This document shows, piece after piece, positions 25,269 to 34,343 of a stretch of DNA of 64,000 nt. A program made the translations under genes and the position numbers. Under the pieces are notes generated by a model that saw nothing but the letters and a program-made list of their open reading frames with translations, did no database searches and was not told where the DNA came from. Source of the stretch: Alicyclobacillus acidocaldarius subsp. acidocaldarius Tc-4-1 (GTDB lineage: Bacteria; Bacillota; Bacilli; Alicyclobacillales; Alicyclobacillaceae); NCBI RefSeq assembly GCF_000219875.1, contig NC_017167.1, positions 2,627,361 to 2,691,360 of the forward strand, written 5' to 3'. Position 1 is the stretch's first letter. Each line of letters begins with the position of its first letter.

Positions 25269-26926
25269 CTATGGGTTTTTAAGCACTCGGTAGAGTTTCC
25301 ACATGCCGAACCTCTTCTGCAGGCGTACCCACGGCGCCCCATGGGTGTAGAGGGTCGGGTATGTCCGATTTACGACGTCAAATTGATATCCATTTACCGG
25401 ATCTGGAACAAGTATATATTGGACGTGATGCGTCCACGGGTAGCGCAGCGCACTGGCAAAGTCGTAGTCGCTCGTAATCACGAGATGTCGCGGTTGTCGC
25501 ACATGGAGAATGGCATCGAAGGCAGAGTACGAATCCATAAGGACAGTCGCGCTGGGAAGATCCTGATTGATATACTGCGCAACTTGCTGTTGAATTCGGA
25601 GCTGTTGAATCACCTCATTTTGTCCATGTGAATGAGACTGTATTCCTCCGGCGCGACCGTGGCATTTCGTTCCATGATTCGACCCGTGAACCCGCCAGAG
25701 ATCACAATCGACAGGGCCATCGCGACTTGCGCGAGCCCTCGCCACCATCGCCCCAATTGTATGGCATCCAAGCGCATTTCGTACGTCCACCAGGCAACCG
25801 CAATCGGAAGCGGATAGAAGAAGAATCGCAACCAGCCATATGATGCTCCATGAAGGAGCAAAAAGAACTGTAGCGATGGAATGGATGCAGCGAGCACGAG
25901 CAGTTGTAACGTTTCCCACCGAACCAGTCGACCGCGAGTGAGCCGGTAGACAAGCACCATACCCACAGGAATCACAAATATCCAGATTCGTTGCCACATG
26001 AACAGGAGAACGCGAACCGGATGATGCTCAATTGAGCGATACTTGGAGGCGGAGGAGAGCATGCTCGTCAGCGACAAGTTGGAATACGCGGAGTGGAGGA
26101 AGTAGAACGGATCGTGCATGATCTCGGCGTTGAGCACCATCCACACAATACCTGAATATACGGCAGGCAAGAGCAATACGATCGCTGTGGCGGCGGCGTA
26201 CCACAAACGCTCCTGGCTGCGGAACCGACGGTATGCTCGGCGAGACATGAGCAAGCGCACCTGTGCATCTGCCGGGGCACGGCGCAGCGCGTCCGACAGC
26301 ACGACTGCAAACAGCCCCACTCCGAACGCAACCGCCTCATAGCGAGCCCAAAACGCCATGGCAAGCGCACACCCTGCAATGACCAGCCTTGAAACGGCAT
26401 AGTCATCCTTCCATGACAGGTAGTTTAATAGACAGATCACCAGAAAGCAGGCAAAGATCATCTCACTCATGCCGTTGGCGCCGTAGAGGAACATGAAGGG
26501 GTGCAGCGCAAGACACAAAACGACCACAAAGGAAGTGACCTTCGAAACCTCAGCCCAAAGGAGAGCCCGGTGCAGTGCGAACGCCATCGCCGCAGATGCA
26601 ACGGATGTTACGAACACGCCAGCCAACGCGTCTGAAGCGATGGGCGGAAACCAACGCCACAATGCGACTGGCGGCAACTCAAACATGCTCGGCAGTGGAT
26701 TCCACACAAAGCCAATCGCACCCAGATGCGGATCCCGGCTAAACAACACGTAAAATGCATTGGCCACGCGGCTGAGGGCATCCTCCTGTAAGTCACCCTG
26801 GACTGCGTACAGATAGCAACCGAAGACGAACTCAGCCGCAAACACGATAGCAGACAGAACCCAGCCACTCCGGTGTTTTCTCGGAACGGATGCGTTCGTC
26901 ATTGAAAGTTCAACCCATTTTGTCAC
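25269..26926 (-). pseudogene. Membrane glycosyltransferase (GT39/ArnT-like) with a frameshift
   Basis: Polytopic protein resembling lipid-linked-sugar-dependent mannosyl or arabinosyl transferases. The GTG at 26926 has AAGGAG eight bases upstream and overlaps the preceding glycosyltransferase stop by 17 bases. About ten membrane segments are followed by EEYSLIHMDKMR and a stop at 25610. In another frame the soluble C-terminal domain continues from NEVIQQLRIQQQ to WKLYRVLKNP at 25269, including HVRQPRHLVITSDYDFASAL. Adding one A to the A4 run (TTTT on the plus strand, 25618-25621) gives IHMDKNEVIQQ and a single 552-residue protein. It is therefore an inactivated gene or a sequence error. Confidence 0.8.
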
Positions 26927-27688
26927 TCAGGAACGCTCCTTGTGATGGGAGATGCACCTTGCCGGTCGTCAAACCATGCGGCGTCTTGTTCCAATGAAAC
27001 GGCCTGCGAATGAGTTCCCACAACGCACGATACGTGGCAACAGACATAAGGAGCCAATACAGCGGCGATAAAATCGCCGAAAGGACCAATCTGAAAGACA
27101 ACAACGCAGATCCACGCCGCTGACTCTTCTCAACCTCGAGGTACATTCCGACCATGTTGCTGTATACAAACACAAAATTGCCGATGAACAATAAAACAGA
27201 GGCTAAGTAGTAAATGAAGCCCGGGAATAGTGTCGGAATCCATGACGCATGACACATGAACCAGAGTATCAACAGCAGCCAAAAGAACGGATTCACAAGA
27301 GGTAAAAACGGTGTTCCGAGGATCATAGCCTGAAACCCCAAGAAGCCTTTCGCGCCGAGATCGCGCCACAGTTGCACCGGGTGCCTCATGTTCACCAGCC
27401 ATGTGATGAGATAGCCCTTCACCCATCGGGCTCGCTGCCGAATCCAGGAACGAACCCGACTATTGGCTTCTTCCCACGTGGTGGAGTCCACCAAGGCCGT
27501 CTGGTATCCATGTTTGTACAGCCGCACGCCGAGGTCGGCATCCTCCGTCACATTGAACGGGTCCCACGCACCAACTTTCCTCAAGACCTCAGTTCGAAAG
27601 TGATTGGAGGTGCCACCAAGCGGAATGGGGACATTCATAGCCATGACACCAGGGAGCAAGATGCCGAACCAGTTGCTGTATTCCTGAG

Positions 27689-27694
27689 AAAACC
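27689..27694. repeat. Target site duplication, left copy
   Basis: AAAACC directly outside the left end of the IS element, identical to 29377-29382. Confidence 0.85.
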
Positions 27695-29376
27695 CCTGAA
27701 TCCGTGACGAGTAGGTGCGAAAATTGCTGAAGCGCTCGTGGTTGGTCCTGTAGAATTGAGATAGTTCGGATATCGGCTGTATTCAATCCCTCTTCACCAT
27801 CGGGGTGAACCACTTGCGTTTCATCATTGAAGAATCCGATGAAGTCATCGTCACGCATTCGGGAATGACCCTTGTCGGCGTGTTGCTTGATAAAACCAGA
27901 ATCGGCGAGCGGTTGAATCAGACCCGCCTGCCTGGTATGGGCAAACCGGATATTTCAAACCGGGACGTGGCATACTCATACATCGGGCTGCTTTGCCAAG
28001 GCAAGACCGACTTCGACCACATCGAAGCGTTTCGAGATGACGAGTTTTTCATGATCGCACTGCAAGTAGACAACGTGCCTTCGAGCCCGACGCTGCGCCA
28101 GCGTTTGGACATGGTTGCCGGAAAATCCGGCTGGGAGTCCATTCTCCGGGAAGAGTCCGCAAGGCTCCTGAGAGCCCTCGATGTAACTCTGCATCCGATT
28201 GAACTGGGCGTGCCTGCAGAGCGTCGAACTTACATCCCGCTGGATATCGACGTCAGTCCCTTTGATAATTCCGGCACGAAGAAGGAAGGCGTGTCCCGTA
28301 CATACAAGGGGCACGACGGATATGCTCCCATCTTTGCTTACCTTGGCCAAGAGGGCTACGTGGTCAATGTCCAGTTGCGTGAAGGCAGTACCCACGTACA
28401 AAAGGGCACGTCGACTTTCCTGCGGGAGAGTATTCAGTATGCAAGGCAGGTGACGGACCTCCCGCTTCTGGTTCGTCTGGATGCCGGCAATGACAGTGCA
28501 GAAAACATCGCCGTGTGTCGCTCCCAGGACAGCAGGGCCGAGTTCATCATCAAGCGCAACTTGCGAAAGGAGAGCCCCGAGGCCTGGCTTGTGATTGCCC
28601 AGCGACACGGGACATGTCATGAACCTCGTCCCGGCAAGAAGGTATATCATGGTTCGCTGATGTGTCCCGTCAAGGGTGTATCCGAACCAGTTCGCATGGT
28701 GTTCGAAGTTATCGAACGGACCATGACGGCCGACGGCCAAATCTTATTGGTACCGGACATTGAGGTCAGCGCCTACTGGACCTCACTGCCGGATGACCCG
28801 GCTGTGATCATTCGCCTGTATCACGACCACGCCGTGATGGAACAGTTCCACAGCGAAATCAAGACGGATCTGGACGCCGAGCGGCTGCCCTCGGGTAAAT
28901 TCGCCACGAACAACTTGGTATTGCACTTTGTATGCGTGGCGTACAATCTGCTGCGAGTGATCGGCCAGGAGAGTCTGAAGCGAAATGATGCGCCGCTACG
29001 AAAAAAGGCAGAACGTCGCCGGATCCGGACTGTGATTCAGAACCTGATGACACTGGCTGCGAAGATGGTGCGACACGCCAGACAGACCAAGCTGAAATTG
29101 GGGTACGGGAATCGATGGCTCCCGGCATTTCGGCGATTGTACTTGGCCTTTGCGTAACGTGAACTGTGTCGAGCAAAGACACTGCATATGACCTGACATG
29201 GAAACCGAACCCAACCATTCACGAGTCCAGGGGGGACATCTGCCTTTTCGCCGCACTGGCTCCAACCGATATTCACAATCCCTAAGAAAATTGAATGTAC
29301 ATCCGTGAAATCGCAGTGAAGGGGCTTGCGAGAACACACATCAGCCTCTTTCCATCGGCCCTGTCACGGATTCAGG
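27695..29376 (+). mobile_element. IS1380-family insertion sequence, 1682 bp, complete
   Basis: Perfect 14-bp terminal inverted repeats CCTGAATCCGTGAC (27695-27708) and its complement (29363-29376) bound the element, with one transposase gene inside and ~200 non-coding bases at the right end. It is flanked by the direct repeat AAAACC on both sides. Length and single long transposase match the IS1380 family, though I recall shorter target duplications being usual there. The insertion cuts a glycosyltransferase gene. Intact ends, frame and target repeats indicate a recent event. Confidence 0.93.
27805..29157 (+). CDS. IS1380-family DDE transposase
   Basis: 450-residue transposase. The first acidic residue of the DDE triad is in IPLDIDVSPFDNSGTKKE, the second in LLVRLDAGNDSAENI, and the Glu in MEQFHSEIKTDLDAERLPS, which is the IS1380 pattern. 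KFATNNLVLHFVCVAYNLLR follows the Glu as usual. The GTG start at 27805 is the longest open frame; no strong ribosome site is seen. The gene is on the opposite strand to the gene it interrupts. It appears functional. Confidence 0.92.
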   Translation: MNHLRFIIEESDEVIVTHSGMTLVGVLLDKTRIGERLNQTRLPGMGKPDISNRDVAYSYIGLLCQGKTDFDHIEAFRDDEFFMIALQVDNVPSSPTLRQRLDMVAGKSGWESILREESARLLRALDVTLHPIELGVPAERRTYIPLDIDVSPFDNSGTKKEGVSRTYKGHDGYAPIFAYLGQEGYVVNVQLREGSTHVQKGTSTFLRESIQYARQVTDLPLLVRLDAGNDSAENIAVCRSQDSRAEFIIKRNLRKESPEAWLVIAQRHGTCHEPRPGKKVYHGSLMCPVKGVSEPVRMVFEVIERTMTADGQILLVPDIEVSAYWTSLPDDPAVIIRLYHDHAVMEQFHSEIKTDLDAERLPSGKFATNNLVLHFVCVAYNLLRVIGQESLKRNDAPLRKKAERRRIRTVIQNLMTLAAKMVRHARQTKLKLGYGNRWLPAFRRLYLAFA

Positions 29377-29382
29377 AAAACC
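29377..29382. repeat. Target site duplication, right copy
   Basis: AAAACC directly outside the right end of the IS element, identical to 27689-27694. Confidence 0.85.
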
Positions 29383-30755
29383 ATCTGGTAAGCAAGTTCT
29401 GGCTCGCATTGTAATAGTTCAGTTTCGCCTGCACGCACGCATACTCGGCGGGGAGCTTGCGGAATGCTGCGATGACCTTCTTCAATTGGTCGAGTTCTGG
29501 ACGATCTTCGGCATCATAAATCACCACAAACTCTCCGCGCGCATGGATCAAGCCGAAATTACACGCTTTGGGCTTCGTCTGAGGGTAAGATTTGGGGACA
29601 ACGACAAATGAGACGTAGTACGGCGGCGACAGGGCTCGTGCTGCTTGCAACGTCTCGAGATCATCCTCCTCGAACAAAAGGCGGATATCCAATTTGTGTT
29701 TCGGATAATCAAGCTGCATCAGATGTTCCAGAAGACCAGGCAACACGTTCGCCTCGCGATAGAGCGGCACGAGAATGGTGTACGTCGGCAACTCGCGTTC
29801 AGACAGGGAGGCCAGATCCTCGTCGGTAACGGAGACAAAGCCCTCCCCTTGTGCACCACGATAGAGCATCACGACCTTCATCAACGCGAACAAAACATAG
29901 CAAAGCTGCAGCACCAAATTGATGGCGAGAGCTGTGCTCCGAGGCACCAAGGTAATGCCTGTGCCCAAGGCGATCAGCACCAAAATACCCACCACGATTT
30001 GTGCTCGCGTCAGTAGAAAAGACGCCGAATTCTGAGGCTGTTCTTCGGCGAGCCGCTCCACACTTTCAAACCGCATCTCGTCTGCGTAAATCAGGTTCCA
30101 AAGTTGGTCAAGTTCGTACCGGGTGGCAAGTTGTTGACGAATCGGCTTATCGAGATACATTGTGAGTTCGCGCATGCGCGCTTCGTCCAGGACATCGTGA
30201 ACAGCGACCCAAATCTGCGATGCATCTTCATCGATCACGACCGCCCCCAGCCTTCGCGCCACGTCTTCTGGGAGTTTACGGAGGGTTTGAAGTCGAGGTG
30301 GCCAGACCACCCTCTCATGCTTGAGCTGTTCCGCCAGAAGGCGGTAGACGTCCACCGGCTTCGCGTAGCCGCGCGCCACGACGATGTCACCCAAGCGCCC
30401 GCCGGTGACAGCTTGTTCGAGAAGAGCGGCTTCGAGTTGTTCAGACGTAAGAATACCTTGTTCGACCATAAGCATGCCCAAGGGTATTTGTTCATTTGAA
30501 AACCCACGCGCATTTCCCATAAATATCTCCGTCTCCCAGGTATCTTTGACCACGCCATTCGAGTCCAATGCGACTCGTCACTCATTCTAGTAGAAATACG
30601 CGTGATATGCGCCATTCGGATGACCGTCAACACAGGAAAATCACAAACGGTGAATCCGCGTGTTCGGAACACACCCGAGCCGTATTGAGACAAACCACCT
30701 CAGGCATACGCTGTCACATGGGTGCGGAGTCCTCGCCCATGGAAGGAGACAGTCC

Positions 30756-31004
30756 ATGCCTTCTCTCATCGTCATCGGCACGGCCGCGGCAGATGCCGCC
30801 GTTCAGAATGCGGGCATTTTTCTCGGCGAGGGCAACGTCGGCGGATGGGACGCCAACCGCAAGATGTCCAACGCCTACAGCGGCACGTATGGGGCCTTTA
30901 ACTTCCTGCCCGCCATGGTGAATGTCAATGTGGACAACTTCGAAGTGGTGGATGGCGCCATCAACGACACGGACTTCAAGCTCACCGTGGGCGCCAATGG
31001 ATAA
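30756..31004 (+). CDS. Small tandem-family protein 1 (unknown)
   Basis: 82 residues, first of five tandem paralogues. Start ATG after GGAGA. It has the family core QNAGIFLGEGNVGGWDANRK at 17-36 and VDNFEVVDGAINDTDFKL near the end. The other four have TPQQNAG; here the segment is AAVQNAG, so it is the most divergent at this point. No signal peptide, cysteine or membrane segment. I do not recognise the family; the compact beta-rich character and Gly/Asn/Asp content would fit a small structural protein, but that is inference. Confidence 0.8.
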   Translation: MPSLIVIGTAAADAAVQNAGIFLGEGNVGGWDANRKMSNAYSGTYGAFNFLPAMVNVNVDNFEVVDGAINDTDFKLTVGANG

Positions 31005-31043
31005 CAGCACTCGAGTCGAGCGGAACGAAGGCGGAGGGTTGAC

Positions 31044-31292
31044 ATGCCAAGCGTCATCTTGCTCGGTTCGCTCCTCATGAACACGCCCCAGCAGAACGCG
31101 GGTGCCTTCGTAGGCGAATACAATTTTGCCGGCTGGGACGCCAACCGCAAAATGAGTCAGGCGCACGGCGGAGAATTCGGCTTCTTCAATTGGAGCCCCG
31201 GATTCTACAACCTGAACCTGGATAGCTTTGAAGTCGTGGATGGCGCCATCAACGACGCGGACGCCAAGCCCGTCATCGGCAATAATCTGTGA
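31044..31292 (+). CDS. Small tandem-family protein 2 (unknown)
   Basis: 82 residues, 39 bases after the first copy. ATG with GGAGGG five bases upstream. Core NTPQQNAGAFVGEYNFAGWD and DSFEVVDGAINDADAKP. It is closest to copy 1 in the C-terminal half, where both have FEVVDGAIND and an acidic pair. Same lack of cysteines and membrane segments. Function unknown. Confidence 0.82.
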   Translation: MPSVILLGSLLMNTPQQNAGAFVGEYNFAGWDANRKMSQAHGGEFGFFNWSPGFYNLNLDSFEVVDGAINDADAKPVIGNNL

Positions 31293-31326
31293 ACACGGTG
31301 TGTCGTGACGCACAACAGGGGAGGGG

Positions 31327-31581
31327 ATGGCCATTCCTGCACTCGTCTTTATCGGAGCCAACAACTCCATGACACCGCAGCAGAACGCGGGCACGTTCAT
31401 CGGCCAGGTCAACAACGGAGCCTGGGACGCGAACATGAAGTTTCAGGCGGGAAAAAGCGGCAACTATGACGTGATGAGCTACAATCTGCAGATCTGGAGC
31501 CTGCTGTTCGACAGCTTCGAATTCATCGACGGTCAGGTGAACACCCTCGGCCTGAAGCCGGACGTCGAAGGCAACGTCTAA
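31327..31581 (+). CDS. Small tandem-family protein 3 (unknown)
   Basis: 84 residues. The ATG directly follows a GGGGAGGGG stretch, so spacing is tight. Core MTPQQNAGTFIGQVNNGAWD and FDSFEFIDGQVNTLGLKP. The insertion of two residues at the N terminus (MAIPALV against MPSVIL) is particular to this copy. Function unknown; expected to be co-expressed with its neighbours. Confidence 0.82.
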   Translation: MAIPALVFIGANNSMTPQQNAGTFIGQVNNGAWDANMKFQAGKSGNYDVMSYNLQIWSLLFDSFEFIDGQVNTLGLKPDVEGNV

Positions 31582-31612
31582 ACGCGCCCTTGATGCGAAG
31601 GAGGCGATTCCC

Positions 31613-31858
31613 ATTCCAGTGCTGATTCTGAGCGGCGTGCTGAACGCCATGACGCCGCAACAGAACGCGGGCGTATTTCTTGGGCAAATCAATATCGGCG
31701 GCTGGGACGCCAACCAAAAGTACGGCGCCGGCAAGGCGCTCGACGCAGGGGTCTTCAACGTCCTCATCAGCGCCAACACGCTGTTCGACAGCTTCGAAAT
31801 GATGGACGGCGTGATCCACGATCAAGACCTAAAATTAAGCTACGAGTGGAACTTCTGA
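31613..31858 (+). CDS. Small tandem-family protein 4 (unknown), probable ATT start
   Basis: 81 residues if started at ATT 31613, which lies eight bases after AAGGAGG and makes the N terminus M-P-V-L-I-L, matching the M-P start of copies 1, 2 and 5. The first conventional start, GTG 31619, is 14 bases from the ribosome site and would lose the conserved Met-Pro. Core MTPQQNAGVFLGQINIGGWD and FDSFEMMDGVIHDQDLKL. Function unknown. Confidence 0.78.
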   Translation: MPVLILSGVLNAMTPQQNAGVFLGQINIGGWDANQKYGAGKALDAGVFNVLISANTLFDSFEMMDGVIHDQDLKLSYEWNF

Positions 31859-31912
31859 ATGCGGAACGCTGTAGAGGAGGCTGCCATCCAGGCCAGGACT
31901 GGAGGTTGACGC

Positions 31913-32161
31913 GTGCCAACGGTCATTGCCTTTCAAGCCATTTTGAGCAACACGCCGCAACAGAACTCGGGAATTTTCATCGGCGAGATCAACATCGGCG
32001 GCTGGGACGCGCACGTCAAATCGAACGCCGCGCAAGCCGCTGTACTGGGCTCTCGCAATGTCCACCTGCTCACGCGCAACCTGAATGTGGATAGCTACGA
32101 ACTCTTGGACGGCCTCATCTTCGACCAGGATTTCAAACCGACGTGGGGCATCCAATGTTGA
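31913..32161 (+). CDS. Small tandem-family protein 5 (unknown)
   Basis: 82 residues, last of the five. GTG start at 31913 with GGAGG seven bases upstream. Core NTPQQNSGIFIGEINIGGWD and VDSYELLDGLIFDQDFKP. It is closest to copy 4 (GQ/GEINIGGWDA). It is the only copy with a cysteine, at the C terminus. A bidirectional hairpin terminator follows 17 bases later, ending the cluster. Function unknown. Confidence 0.82.
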   Translation: MPTVIAFQAILSNTPQQNSGIFIGEINIGGWDAHVKSNAAQAAVLGSRNVHLLTRNLNVDSYELLDGLIFDQDFKPTWGIQC

Positions 32162-32178
32162 ATTCATGGATCGAGAGA

Positions 32179-32202
32179 AGGCCGCCCGGCCGGGCGGCCT
32201 TG
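32179..32202. terminator. Bidirectional terminator hairpin
   Basis: The perfect palindrome GGCCGCCCGGCCGGGCGGCC (32181-32200) is flanked by AA and TT, between the convergent ends of the five-gene cluster and the PfpI-like gene. The T run is short on both sides. Confidence 0.75.
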
Positions 32203-32204
32203 TT

Positions 32205-32759
32205 TCATCGGGCGTTCAGCAGTTTCAGAAATTCGCGCATGAAGCCAGGCAGATCTGGCCACGCGTGTCCGGACACGAGGTTTCCCTCCACATACAGCGT
32301 CTCTGAGGCGTACTTTGCGCCCATGCCCTCGACGCTCGGCTTGCAGGCGATGTACGCCGTCATGGTGCGCCCCTGCAGCTTGTCGCGCACCACCTCAAGA
32401 ACCTGCGCCGCATGACAAATCGCCCCAACGGGCTTATTGGCATCGAAGAAATGACCCACGATGCGCGGCACATGCTCGTTCAGCCGGATGTACTCTGGCG
32501 CCCGGCCACCAGGCAGGATGAGGCCGTCGAATTCCTCCGGCCGAATGTCGGCAAAAGCCGCGTGCGCCTGAATGAGGTATCCCGGTTTCTCCGTATAGGT
32601 CTCCCAGCCCGTGAAATCGTGGACGACGGTGTTCAGTGTCTTCTTGGTCGGCGCTGCGATGACGGCGTCGATCCCTTCCTCGAGGAGCCGATAGTAAGGA
32701 TAGTAGATTTCCAGGGCTTCGACCGCGTCTCCCGCTAAGATGAGCACCTTCTTGGCCAT
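32205..32759 (-). CDS. DJ-1/PfpI-family protein
   Basis: 184-residue glutamine-amidotransferase-like protein of the DJ-1/PfpI superfamily, whose members act as deglycase, chaperone or protease. The nucleophile elbow is GAICHAAQV with Cys115 and His116. ILPGGRAPEYIRL carries the conserved strand, and Glu15 (DAVEALEIYYP) fits the residue that tunes the cysteine. ATG at 32759 with GAGGAGAGGG upstream. It is monocistronic, and the actual reaction is unresolved for this type. Confidence 0.87.
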   Translation of the reverse strand: MAKKVLILAGDAVEALEIYYPYYRLLEEGIDAVIAAPTKKTLNTVVHDFTGWETYTEKPGYLIQAHAAFADIRPEEFDGLILPGGRAPEYIRLNEHVPRIVGHFFDANKPVGAICHAAQVLEVVRDKLQGRTMTAYIACKPSVEGMGAKYASETLYVEGNLVSGHAWPDLPGFMREFLKLLNAR

Positions 32760-32904: not shown

Positions 32905-34343
32905 TCAGGCAACCGTGGCTGAAACTCTGGCGAGCTCACGAAGCACGTACTTCACCCATGGTCGGTCCGCATGCGGACCGACCAATGCTGGCATGTGTTT
33001 TTCCAGCCAAGTCGCCGCTTCTTCGACCCGTCTCGCGATTTCCGCCTCGTTCACTGGCTTTGTCTTCACCGGCACTTCCGCCTGCATTTCCGAACGAGAA
33101 GGCGTGTTGGCCCGCAGAGGCTCGTGATTGGCGCGCGTTGCAATCAGCCGCACTAACGCATCCGCCCCTGGCTTGCTCCAACGTGCCCCATGGCGCTTCA
33201 TCCGTCGCGCCACGTGGTGGAACACCTGGCCCTCAATTGCACCCAGACTCACCACATCATCATCGCCCACAATGCCTTGCCAATTCTTCTCCATGTATGA
33301 TTTCAGCTTCGAGATACGCTGCTTCTTCGCCCCTTCGCTTTGCTTCTCCATCTTCGTCAGCACCTTTTTCTACCCGCGACCACTCCTCGGTTCTCACCGC
33401 ATCCCATACCTTCCGGTAGCCTGCGTCTCCCGTCCCAAGGCCGCAACCATCGCCTGCCGCAGGTGAAAGGGATCCAATCGATATCGAGCCCCAGGGAGCA
33501 TTCCGACGCCCTTCTTCGCCCATTCCGCCCCGTCCGCGCCGAGCCAACATCGTTTCACGCTGGCCCAATCCCACACGCGCCCAAAAGAGGACACCGCTTC
33601 CTCCCAGAAGCGTTCAGCTTCCTCAGTCCCCGCGACCACCTGTCGATTCATCAGGGCGCGCCGTTCCCGCCCTTGTTCCTGCTTGCCTTCATACGCCACG
33701 GCCACCTTCAATTCGAAGTGTGACTGGCCATCTTCCTCCCTGCGCCCTCGGACATACACGCCATCCGCTTCCACGAAGAGTGTCTCGGCTTTGCGTCTCC
33801 CTCCCGGAGCGTCTCCTTGTTCGAACACCTTCTCCCGCTCCAGCTCCGCTCGGACGCGCTTCTCCCCTCCGAGCCTTTGCACTTCTTGCCAAATCGCCAT
33901 CGCGCTGATGTCCGGCACCCAAGTCTGTAGAATCTCTGCCGCGCGCCGGTACGACACATCTAAAGCCAACGCCACAGCTTGGTCTCTTAACTTCCCGCTC
34001 AATCGACGACGGGGTTCGAACCCTGCTACCTCATCCAACAGGAAGCGACGTTCGCCCGTCTTTCGATTGCGGTAGTAACGCCGACGATACGTGATCTCTC
34101 CCAGGGTGGACACGACCGTCCGTGGTTTACGCTGAATAAGTTCCCACTCATTTCGGTCACGCTCCGCCGCCAGCTTCTCGTCCCACGCTTCGAGCAAGCG
34201 CGGAACCATTCCCTCATGAATTCGCCGAAGGACCTCATGAGCCTCTCTTCAAGAATCGCGAAGTCGCACGGATGCTCAGACAACCACAACAGATTCATCC
34301 ACAGCGGCAGGAAACCCGCCGCGCCATCACGAATATCCAACAT
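32905..34343 (-). pseudogene. ISLre2/UPF0236-type transposase, at least three frameshifts
   Basis: Remnant of an ISLre2-like transposase. Pieces in order: MLDIRDGAAGFLPLWMNLLW from 34343; EAHEVLRRIHEGMVPRLLEA after a shift near 34245; FVEADGVYVRGR, WLGADGAEWAKKG and RLDPFHLRQAM in the same frame; DAGYRKVWDAVRTEEWSRVEK after a shift at the CCC run 33434-33436; and VLTKMEKQSEGAKKQRISK to the stop at 32905 after a shift near 33363-33369. The C-terminal EGQVFHHVARRMKRHGARWS is a family signature. Outer ends with GTAGGGG (32875-32881 and complement 34442-34448) may be the degraded inverted repeats; I see no target duplication. Confidence 0.88.

Follow-up and report, generated by a model that had tools for sequence, protein, structure and literature searches.

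GerP, the nearest described system to the gene array reported here, is located in the inner layer of the spore coat, where it is believed to provide channels for germinants (PMC11841064), and the gerP operon carries a sigma-K promoter (PMC2817736). For the start codons of the array, the comparable cases come from other genera. In Staphylococcus, cvfC1 has a conserved AUU start, and ccpN and infC have AUA starts (infC of S. aureus among them); in S. aureus reporters, AUU and AUA gave about 10% of AUG expression in poor medium (PMC13009471). Streptomyces sigR has a GTC start that is repressed by IF3 (PMC5472188).

Here we describe five consecutive open reading frames of about 80 codons each at positions 30756-32161 on the forward strand of a 64,000-nucleotide stretch of Alicyclobacillus acidocaldarius subsp. 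acidocaldarius Tc-4-1 DNA (the window). The locus has the following features, with dN/dS ranges taken against five related loci.

30687-30712, forward strand: putative mother-cell promoter, GAGACA at 30687-30692 and CATACGCT at 30705-30712, kept in six of six aligned species
30714-30743, forward strand: small 5' leader hairpin, immediately 5' of the copy 1 ribosome-binding region and reaching into it
30756-31004, forward strand: copy 1, ATG start, 82 aa, dN/dS 0.00-0.05
31044-31292, forward strand: copy 2, ATG start, 82 aa, dN/dS 0.00-0.07
31333-31581, forward strand: copy 3, probable AUU start at 31333, with an alternative ATG at 31327 closely behind GGGGAGGGG, dN/dS 0.00-0.04
31598-31604, forward strand: Shine-Dalgarno sequence AAGGAGG for copy 4, with ATT 8 nt and GTG 14 nt further on
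31613-31858, forward strand: copy 4, 81 aa from a probable AUU start at 31613 (GTG at 31619 in the open reading frame list), dN/dS 0.03-0.09
31913-32161, forward strand: copy 5, GTG start (TTG in A. mali), 82 aa, dN/dS 0.00-0.06
32178-32205, forward strand: predicted intrinsic terminator, a 10-bp GC-rich stem at 32178-32201 followed by GTTT

A profile of the five copies recovered each of them from the 3.12 Mb genome of the strain at E 2.7e-41 to 4.6e-39 and found one further, weaker place (E 4.3e-13), with nothing else at E<=10, so their paralogy is far beyond chance. They can be aligned end to end, 15 columns being invariant, and share 35-55% identity with copy 2, bearing out the original prediction of five tandem paralogues. 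The shared motifs that it listed hold loosely: copy 1 reads AAVQNAG in place of TPQQNAG, copy 3 reads NNGAWDA (AWDA in place of GWDA), and in the second motif copies 1 and 4 end in KL, not KP, and copy 3 lacks D.D. As had been proposed, inspection of the alignment by eye found a single Cys, the last residue of copy 5, and the proteins were judged, likewise by eye, to have no signal peptides or membrane segments. The array is under purifying selection (dN/dS 0.00-0.09 in 25 comparisons with the five related loci), and on these values we ruled out that the copies are pseudogenes. As a separate observation, dS between copy 5 and its A. fructus counterpart (L075) is 0.018, against 0.25-1.03 for copies 1-4; copy 5 alone therefore appears to have been recently recombined or transferred relative to A. 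fructus.

Searches with the five copies gave no Pfam match at E<=1, NCBIfam matches only of E 0.06 or more, and no PHROGs match at E<=0.1. A sequence search of solved structures returned three matches of E 0.77 or worse, the best a mastigoneme protein. The family had been called unrecognised, which stands in that these three curated collections hold no name for it, but must be qualified by a distant kinship to gerPA/gerPF that emerges through its relatives. Structure prediction of the monomer, which had been suggested as a check, did not help: copy 2 (48 sequences) reached a pLDDT of 48.7 and a two-domain relative (12 sequences) 33.3, neither fold being usable.

The five-copy profile detects these proteins in 35 of 41 Alicyclobacillaceae genomes, counting the source genome; the largest number in any single genome is 22 matches, spread over several contigs. 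Across the wider phylum, sampled with 398 genomes, the profile matched weakly in 14 besides the source genome; SpoIVA was uninformative as a sporulation marker, being present in 13 of these 14 genomes and in 336 of the 398. Among 24 named loci, 20 are titled Alicyclobacillus, two Alicyclobacillaceae bacterium and two Bacillota bacterium, and the closest relative of copy 2 is copy 2 of A. mali. We ruled out a phage or plasmid origin on the basis of conservation across the bacterial family; a search of plasmid records with the DNA and two relatives gave no match. The weaker place in the source genome is a sixth relative, the second half of a 163-aa open reading frame about 1.2 Mb from the array. 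Under a broader profile its first half also belongs to the family, making this a two-domain protein, and in the two-domain relative found in Alicyclobacillaceae both halves are family members. We also noted one copy in a related genome (L021, 1769-2017) whose first half resembles one paralogue and whose second half resembles the adjacent one, a chimera that suggests gene conversion within the array.

The relatives tie the family to GerPA/GerPF. Among 48 family members, 12 match PF10676 (GerPA/GerPF) at E<=1, the best at 1.3e-5. The 163-aa open reading frame gave E 0.015 in a Pfam scan. Other weak Pfam matches in the 48 relatives (DUF4316 in three members; H_lectin, Flavokinase and four others in at most one member each; best 0.012) were attributed to chance. 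A bridge was provided by nine sequences of other Firmicutes (L128-L136), one of which, L128, scores 24.4 bits against PF10676, under its curated cut-off of 27.3 bits. In profile comparisons, the window-type alignment (81 rows) matched the bridge with a probability of 98.7%, and the bridge matched 47 GerPA-like sequences at 77.7% over 63 columns. Directly, the window-type profile reached GerPA at an insignificant 4.4% over 12 columns, so the link is transitive. When the columns of the GerPA alignments were shuffled, none of 30 controls scored as high as the real alignment with any of the five queries, with a slim margin for the window-type profile (17.0, against 16.8 for the best control). Given these transitive links and the PF10676 matches, the array family is weakly supported as distant kin of GerPA/GerPF, and we do not claim membership in the PF10676 family.

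The array proteins resemble GerPA/GerPF in their size of 70-85 aa, in having no membrane segment by eye and in occurring as several paralogues per genome, and the bridging relatives carry the N-S-G-V-F-x-G-D/E ... K ... D-x-D-x-x-D pattern. The array proteins differ in having no Pfam match and in their GWDA and TPQQ motifs. The original view of the locus as an undescribed system thus needs modifying: the five copies miss the gerP Pfam model, yet gerP is the nearest described system.

Gene order in relatives also points toward the spore. In 20 neighbourhoods that we chose, partly for their gene arrangement, a GerPC-like gene, a GerPA-like gene and an Hsp20 gene stand in that order beside family genes in eight; Hsp20 occurs in ten and the two-domain gene in 16, and the order Hsp20, single-domain gene, two-domain gene recurs in five (L054-L057 and L068). 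The GerPC-like and GerPA-like labels of these neighbours come from weak Pfam matches: the GerPC-like neighbour is a short coiled-coil gene with PF10737 matches of 0.09 and 0.15 in two genes. The GerPC model exceeds its cut-off in four of 21 relatives and not in the source genome, where a search with the GerPA (PF10676) and GerPC models found nothing at E<=1. At 1.453 Mb, that genome has a run of GerPC-like, GerPA-like, Hsp20 and two-domain genes that includes no single-domain array gene; the two-domain gene lies directly 3' of the Hsp20 gene, and this locus is about 1.2 Mb from the array. Bacillus subtilis reportedly has a cotP (Hsp20)-ydgA-ydgB locus in which an Hsp20 gene is followed by GerPA/F-like domains in two separate genes. 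The 1.453 Mb locus is similar in having an Hsp20 gene and then GerPA/F-like domains; it differs in joining them in one two-domain gene, and no GWDA array is known from the B. subtilis locus. Literature searches for cotP/ydgA with sporulation and for gerPA with ydgB found nothing. As in gerP, some relatives have GerPC-resembling neighbours, and the putative promoter would be of the late mother-cell type. Unlike gerP, the array is a five-gene tandem set away from the core locus, with apparent AUU starts, and its relatives have Hsp20 and two-domain partners.

In the window, the neighbours are of another kind. On the reverse strand at 26910-30568 lies a family 2 glycosyltransferase gene with an MshEN domain, split by a DDE transposase gene (27805-29157, forward strand), and a convergent DJ-1/PfpI gene (32205-32759, reverse strand) follows the array. 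Further on, a UPF0236 (PF06782) open reading frame at 33394-34209 on the reverse strand matches only profile positions 29-276 of 400 and is therefore probably partial; we take UPF0236 to be a transposase-like family. Neither the split glycosyltransferase gene nor the DJ-1/PfpI gene is a known spore gene, which, together with the insignificance of the direct comparison with GerPA, would fit a role of the array elsewhere in the mother cell or in the envelope, its likeness to GerPA/GerPF being remote or convergent. The bridge sequences, the shuffled controls and the synteny in relatives all argue against this reading, and we consider it unlikely.

The -10 elements recognised by sigma-E and sigma-K are of the CATA type. 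Ahead of copy 1, GAC, a gap of 12-13 nt and CATACGCT are kept in the six aligned species (this one included), and the sequence further 5' diverges; A. mali and one other genome (G002) have other sequence upstream of the promoter. The mother-cell-type -10 element CATANNNT occurs within 150 bp 5' of 36 of 48 first-in-cluster genes, compared with a shuffled mean of 5.5 and maximum of 11, these 48 regions coming from related species, so that they are not independent, and a few representing internal domains. In controls, it preceded 13 of 164 open reading frames of 250 aa or more and appeared in 7.8% of 5000 random windows. Alignment on CATA revealed 32 sites with a GGGACA-like block at varying spacing. 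In the window, the -35-like block stands 12 nt before CATA, a spacing unlike that of the sigma-K consensus; a literature search for CATANNNTA together with spore coat found nothing. Among five core operons that were also inspected, two carry CATANNNT in the roughly 220 bp preceding them, that of the source genome not being one of the two, and a search of this genome for GGGACA-N11..15-CATANNNT gave no match, the array's own block being GAGACA.

The leader hairpin is not significant relative to shuffles (-18.5 kcal/mol for 30712-30760, z -1.64), and its sequence is largely kept across the aligned species. At the other end, the strong terminator placed there by the original prediction is borne out as a predicted stem-loop (-29.7 kcal/mol, z -3.1 for a 61-nt stretch), perhaps shared with the convergent DJ-1/PfpI gene. 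The link to spores that had been proposed is supported by the GerPA/GerPF profile similarity of relatives, by their synteny with GerPC-like, GerPA-like and Hsp20 genes, and by the mother-cell-type -10 element.

An assembly of related small proteins with several kinds of subunit, as first proposed, is plausible. One form that it could take is a spore appendage or other fibre in which the copies differ by position along the fibre. A tandem set whose copies diverge around a fixed core, with no catalytic motif seen, would suit such a structure, as would the spore linkage through synteny and, weakly, a monomer that does not fold alone, as obligate polymers may not. Ena spore fibre subunits, however, are said to be disulphide-linked, whereas the array has its one Cys at the end of copy 5. 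Neither Pfam nor solved structures gave a match to a spore fibre protein, Ena-type proteins included, and the relatives link instead to coat permeability proteins. We thus found no support for the appendage idea and regard it as very improbable.

The original prediction made no mention of AUU starts, of the sixth relative or of the operon in relatives. We read the start column in 159 distinct family sequences, which gave ATG 75, GTG 26, TTG 11, CTG 1, ATT 23, ATA 1 and ATC 0; the remaining 22 have other codons and were taken as internal second domains. Thus 24 family genes, in 14 genomes, have an Ile codon at the start position, 23 of them ATT and one ATA. Within the coding sequences of these 24 genes, isoleucine is most often encoded by ATC (ATC 68, ATT 50, ATA 11; n=129). 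The absence of ATC from the start position has p 5e-9 if rows are independent, a value that overstates the case because the ATT rows are largely orthologues. A Shine-Dalgarno-like match lies 3-12 nt 5' of the Ile codon in all 24 genes under a lax test and in 23 under a stricter one, and the match is longer, with a mean of 5.9, compared with 5.0 for ATG/GTG/TTG genes (p 0.009, again with rows that are not independent). Two members, L063 (ATA) and L029 (ATT), contain no ATG, GTG or TTG, either in the open frame 5' of this position or within the first 20 codons.

For copies 3 and 4, these codons could instead be internal or chance isoleucines, with ATG 31327 as the start of copy 3 and GTG 31619 as that of copy 4. 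Both standard codons exist in the window; an ATG precedes copy 3 in five of six close species read, and the GTG of copy 4 is also found in L072, L074 and L075. Orthologues speak for the Ile codon: the ATT of copy 3 is conserved while L072 and the more distant L063 have ATC in place of the upstream ATG, and the ATT of copy 4 is conserved in the orthologues read while the GTG is GTC or GTA in L076, L071 and L063. The total absence of ATC among the 24 Ile starts, the two members with no standard start available and the distance of the copy 4 GTG from its Shine-Dalgarno sequence all weigh the same way, and we judge standard starts for both copies improbable. Copies 3 and 4 most likely start at ATT 31333 and ATT 31613, and not at the ATG and GTG of the standard open reading frame list. 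Copy 4 is the clearer AUU case; copy 3 is ambiguous because ATG 31327 is present.

A tree built without the start residue requires four changes between standard and non-standard starts, with CTG counted as non-standard, and is based on few columns with many weak forks. Within the main AUU clade, L035 has an ATG start. Another member (L064) carries CTG in the start column, preceded by a Shine-Dalgarno-like sequence; the tree places it as sister to the ATT genes of L040 and L041. The infC gene of the source genome, at about 2191 kb, reads GGAGGTGA CAC CCC ATA AGC AAA; with no standard start codon close to the 5' end of the gene, translation probably begins at AUA.

The array resembles Staphylococcus cvfC1, ccpN and infC in combining a non-canonical start with a strong Shine-Dalgarno sequence and conservation among species. 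It differs in that the Staphylococcus starts were shown by ribosome profiling and reporters, whereas those of the array are apparent from sequence and involve several paralogues of a spore-type family. Similarly, sigR of Streptomyces has a conserved non-canonical start that keeps one partner below the other; that case concerns a sigma factor/anti-sigma pair with GTC, not ATT, and was shown experimentally. Literature searches on AUU starts and on Alicyclobacillus start codons found none reporting these starts in the titles or abstract openings among the matches listed, which does not prove their absence from print.

Collectively, these data make it reasonably probable that the five genes form an expanded branch, of an Alicyclobacillaceae type, within the small GerPA/GerPF-like coat proteins, expressed in the mother cell, with copies 3 and 4 dosed by AUU starts. 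From the sigma-E/K-type promoter and the single terminator, we infer that the five genes would form one transcription unit active in the mother cell late in sporulation. The five proteins would probably be incorporated into the spore coat, where the related paralogues may co-assemble into a layer or pore that, as in GerP, would control how small molecules (germinants) cross the coat. Copies 3 and 4, with AUU behind a Shine-Dalgarno sequence, should be held low by IF3 because of that start codon, their translation staying below that of copies 1, 2 and 5, and such unequal initiation would give a fixed, unequal ratio of subunits. Conserved AUU initiation in two of the five copies, lowering the dose of two subunits, is probable on the codon pattern.

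A broader version of this model, which we put forward tentatively as a possibility, is that the start codon sets the composition of a coat layer made of many paralogues. One operon would use AUG, AUG, AUU, AUU and GUG. IF3, whose own start in this genome appears to be AUA, would keep the share of the AUU copies low and fixed; that share could perhaps rise when initiation fidelity changes late in sporulation. If the model is true, this would be, to our knowledge, the first example in which several paralogues of a single assembly retain non-canonical starts.

The array family is best described, on present comparisons, as a distant variant of GerPA/GerPF, and the surprising part is its apparent conserved AUU initiation. 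The apparent AUU starts, in several paralogues and 14 genomes, would extend a very short list, and gene finders limited to ATG, GTG and TTG would misplace or miss them. For Alicyclobacillus, a nameless family would gain a testable place as a divergent GerP-like coat system, a candidate that stands in a genome without curated GerPA or GerPC matches at E<=1.
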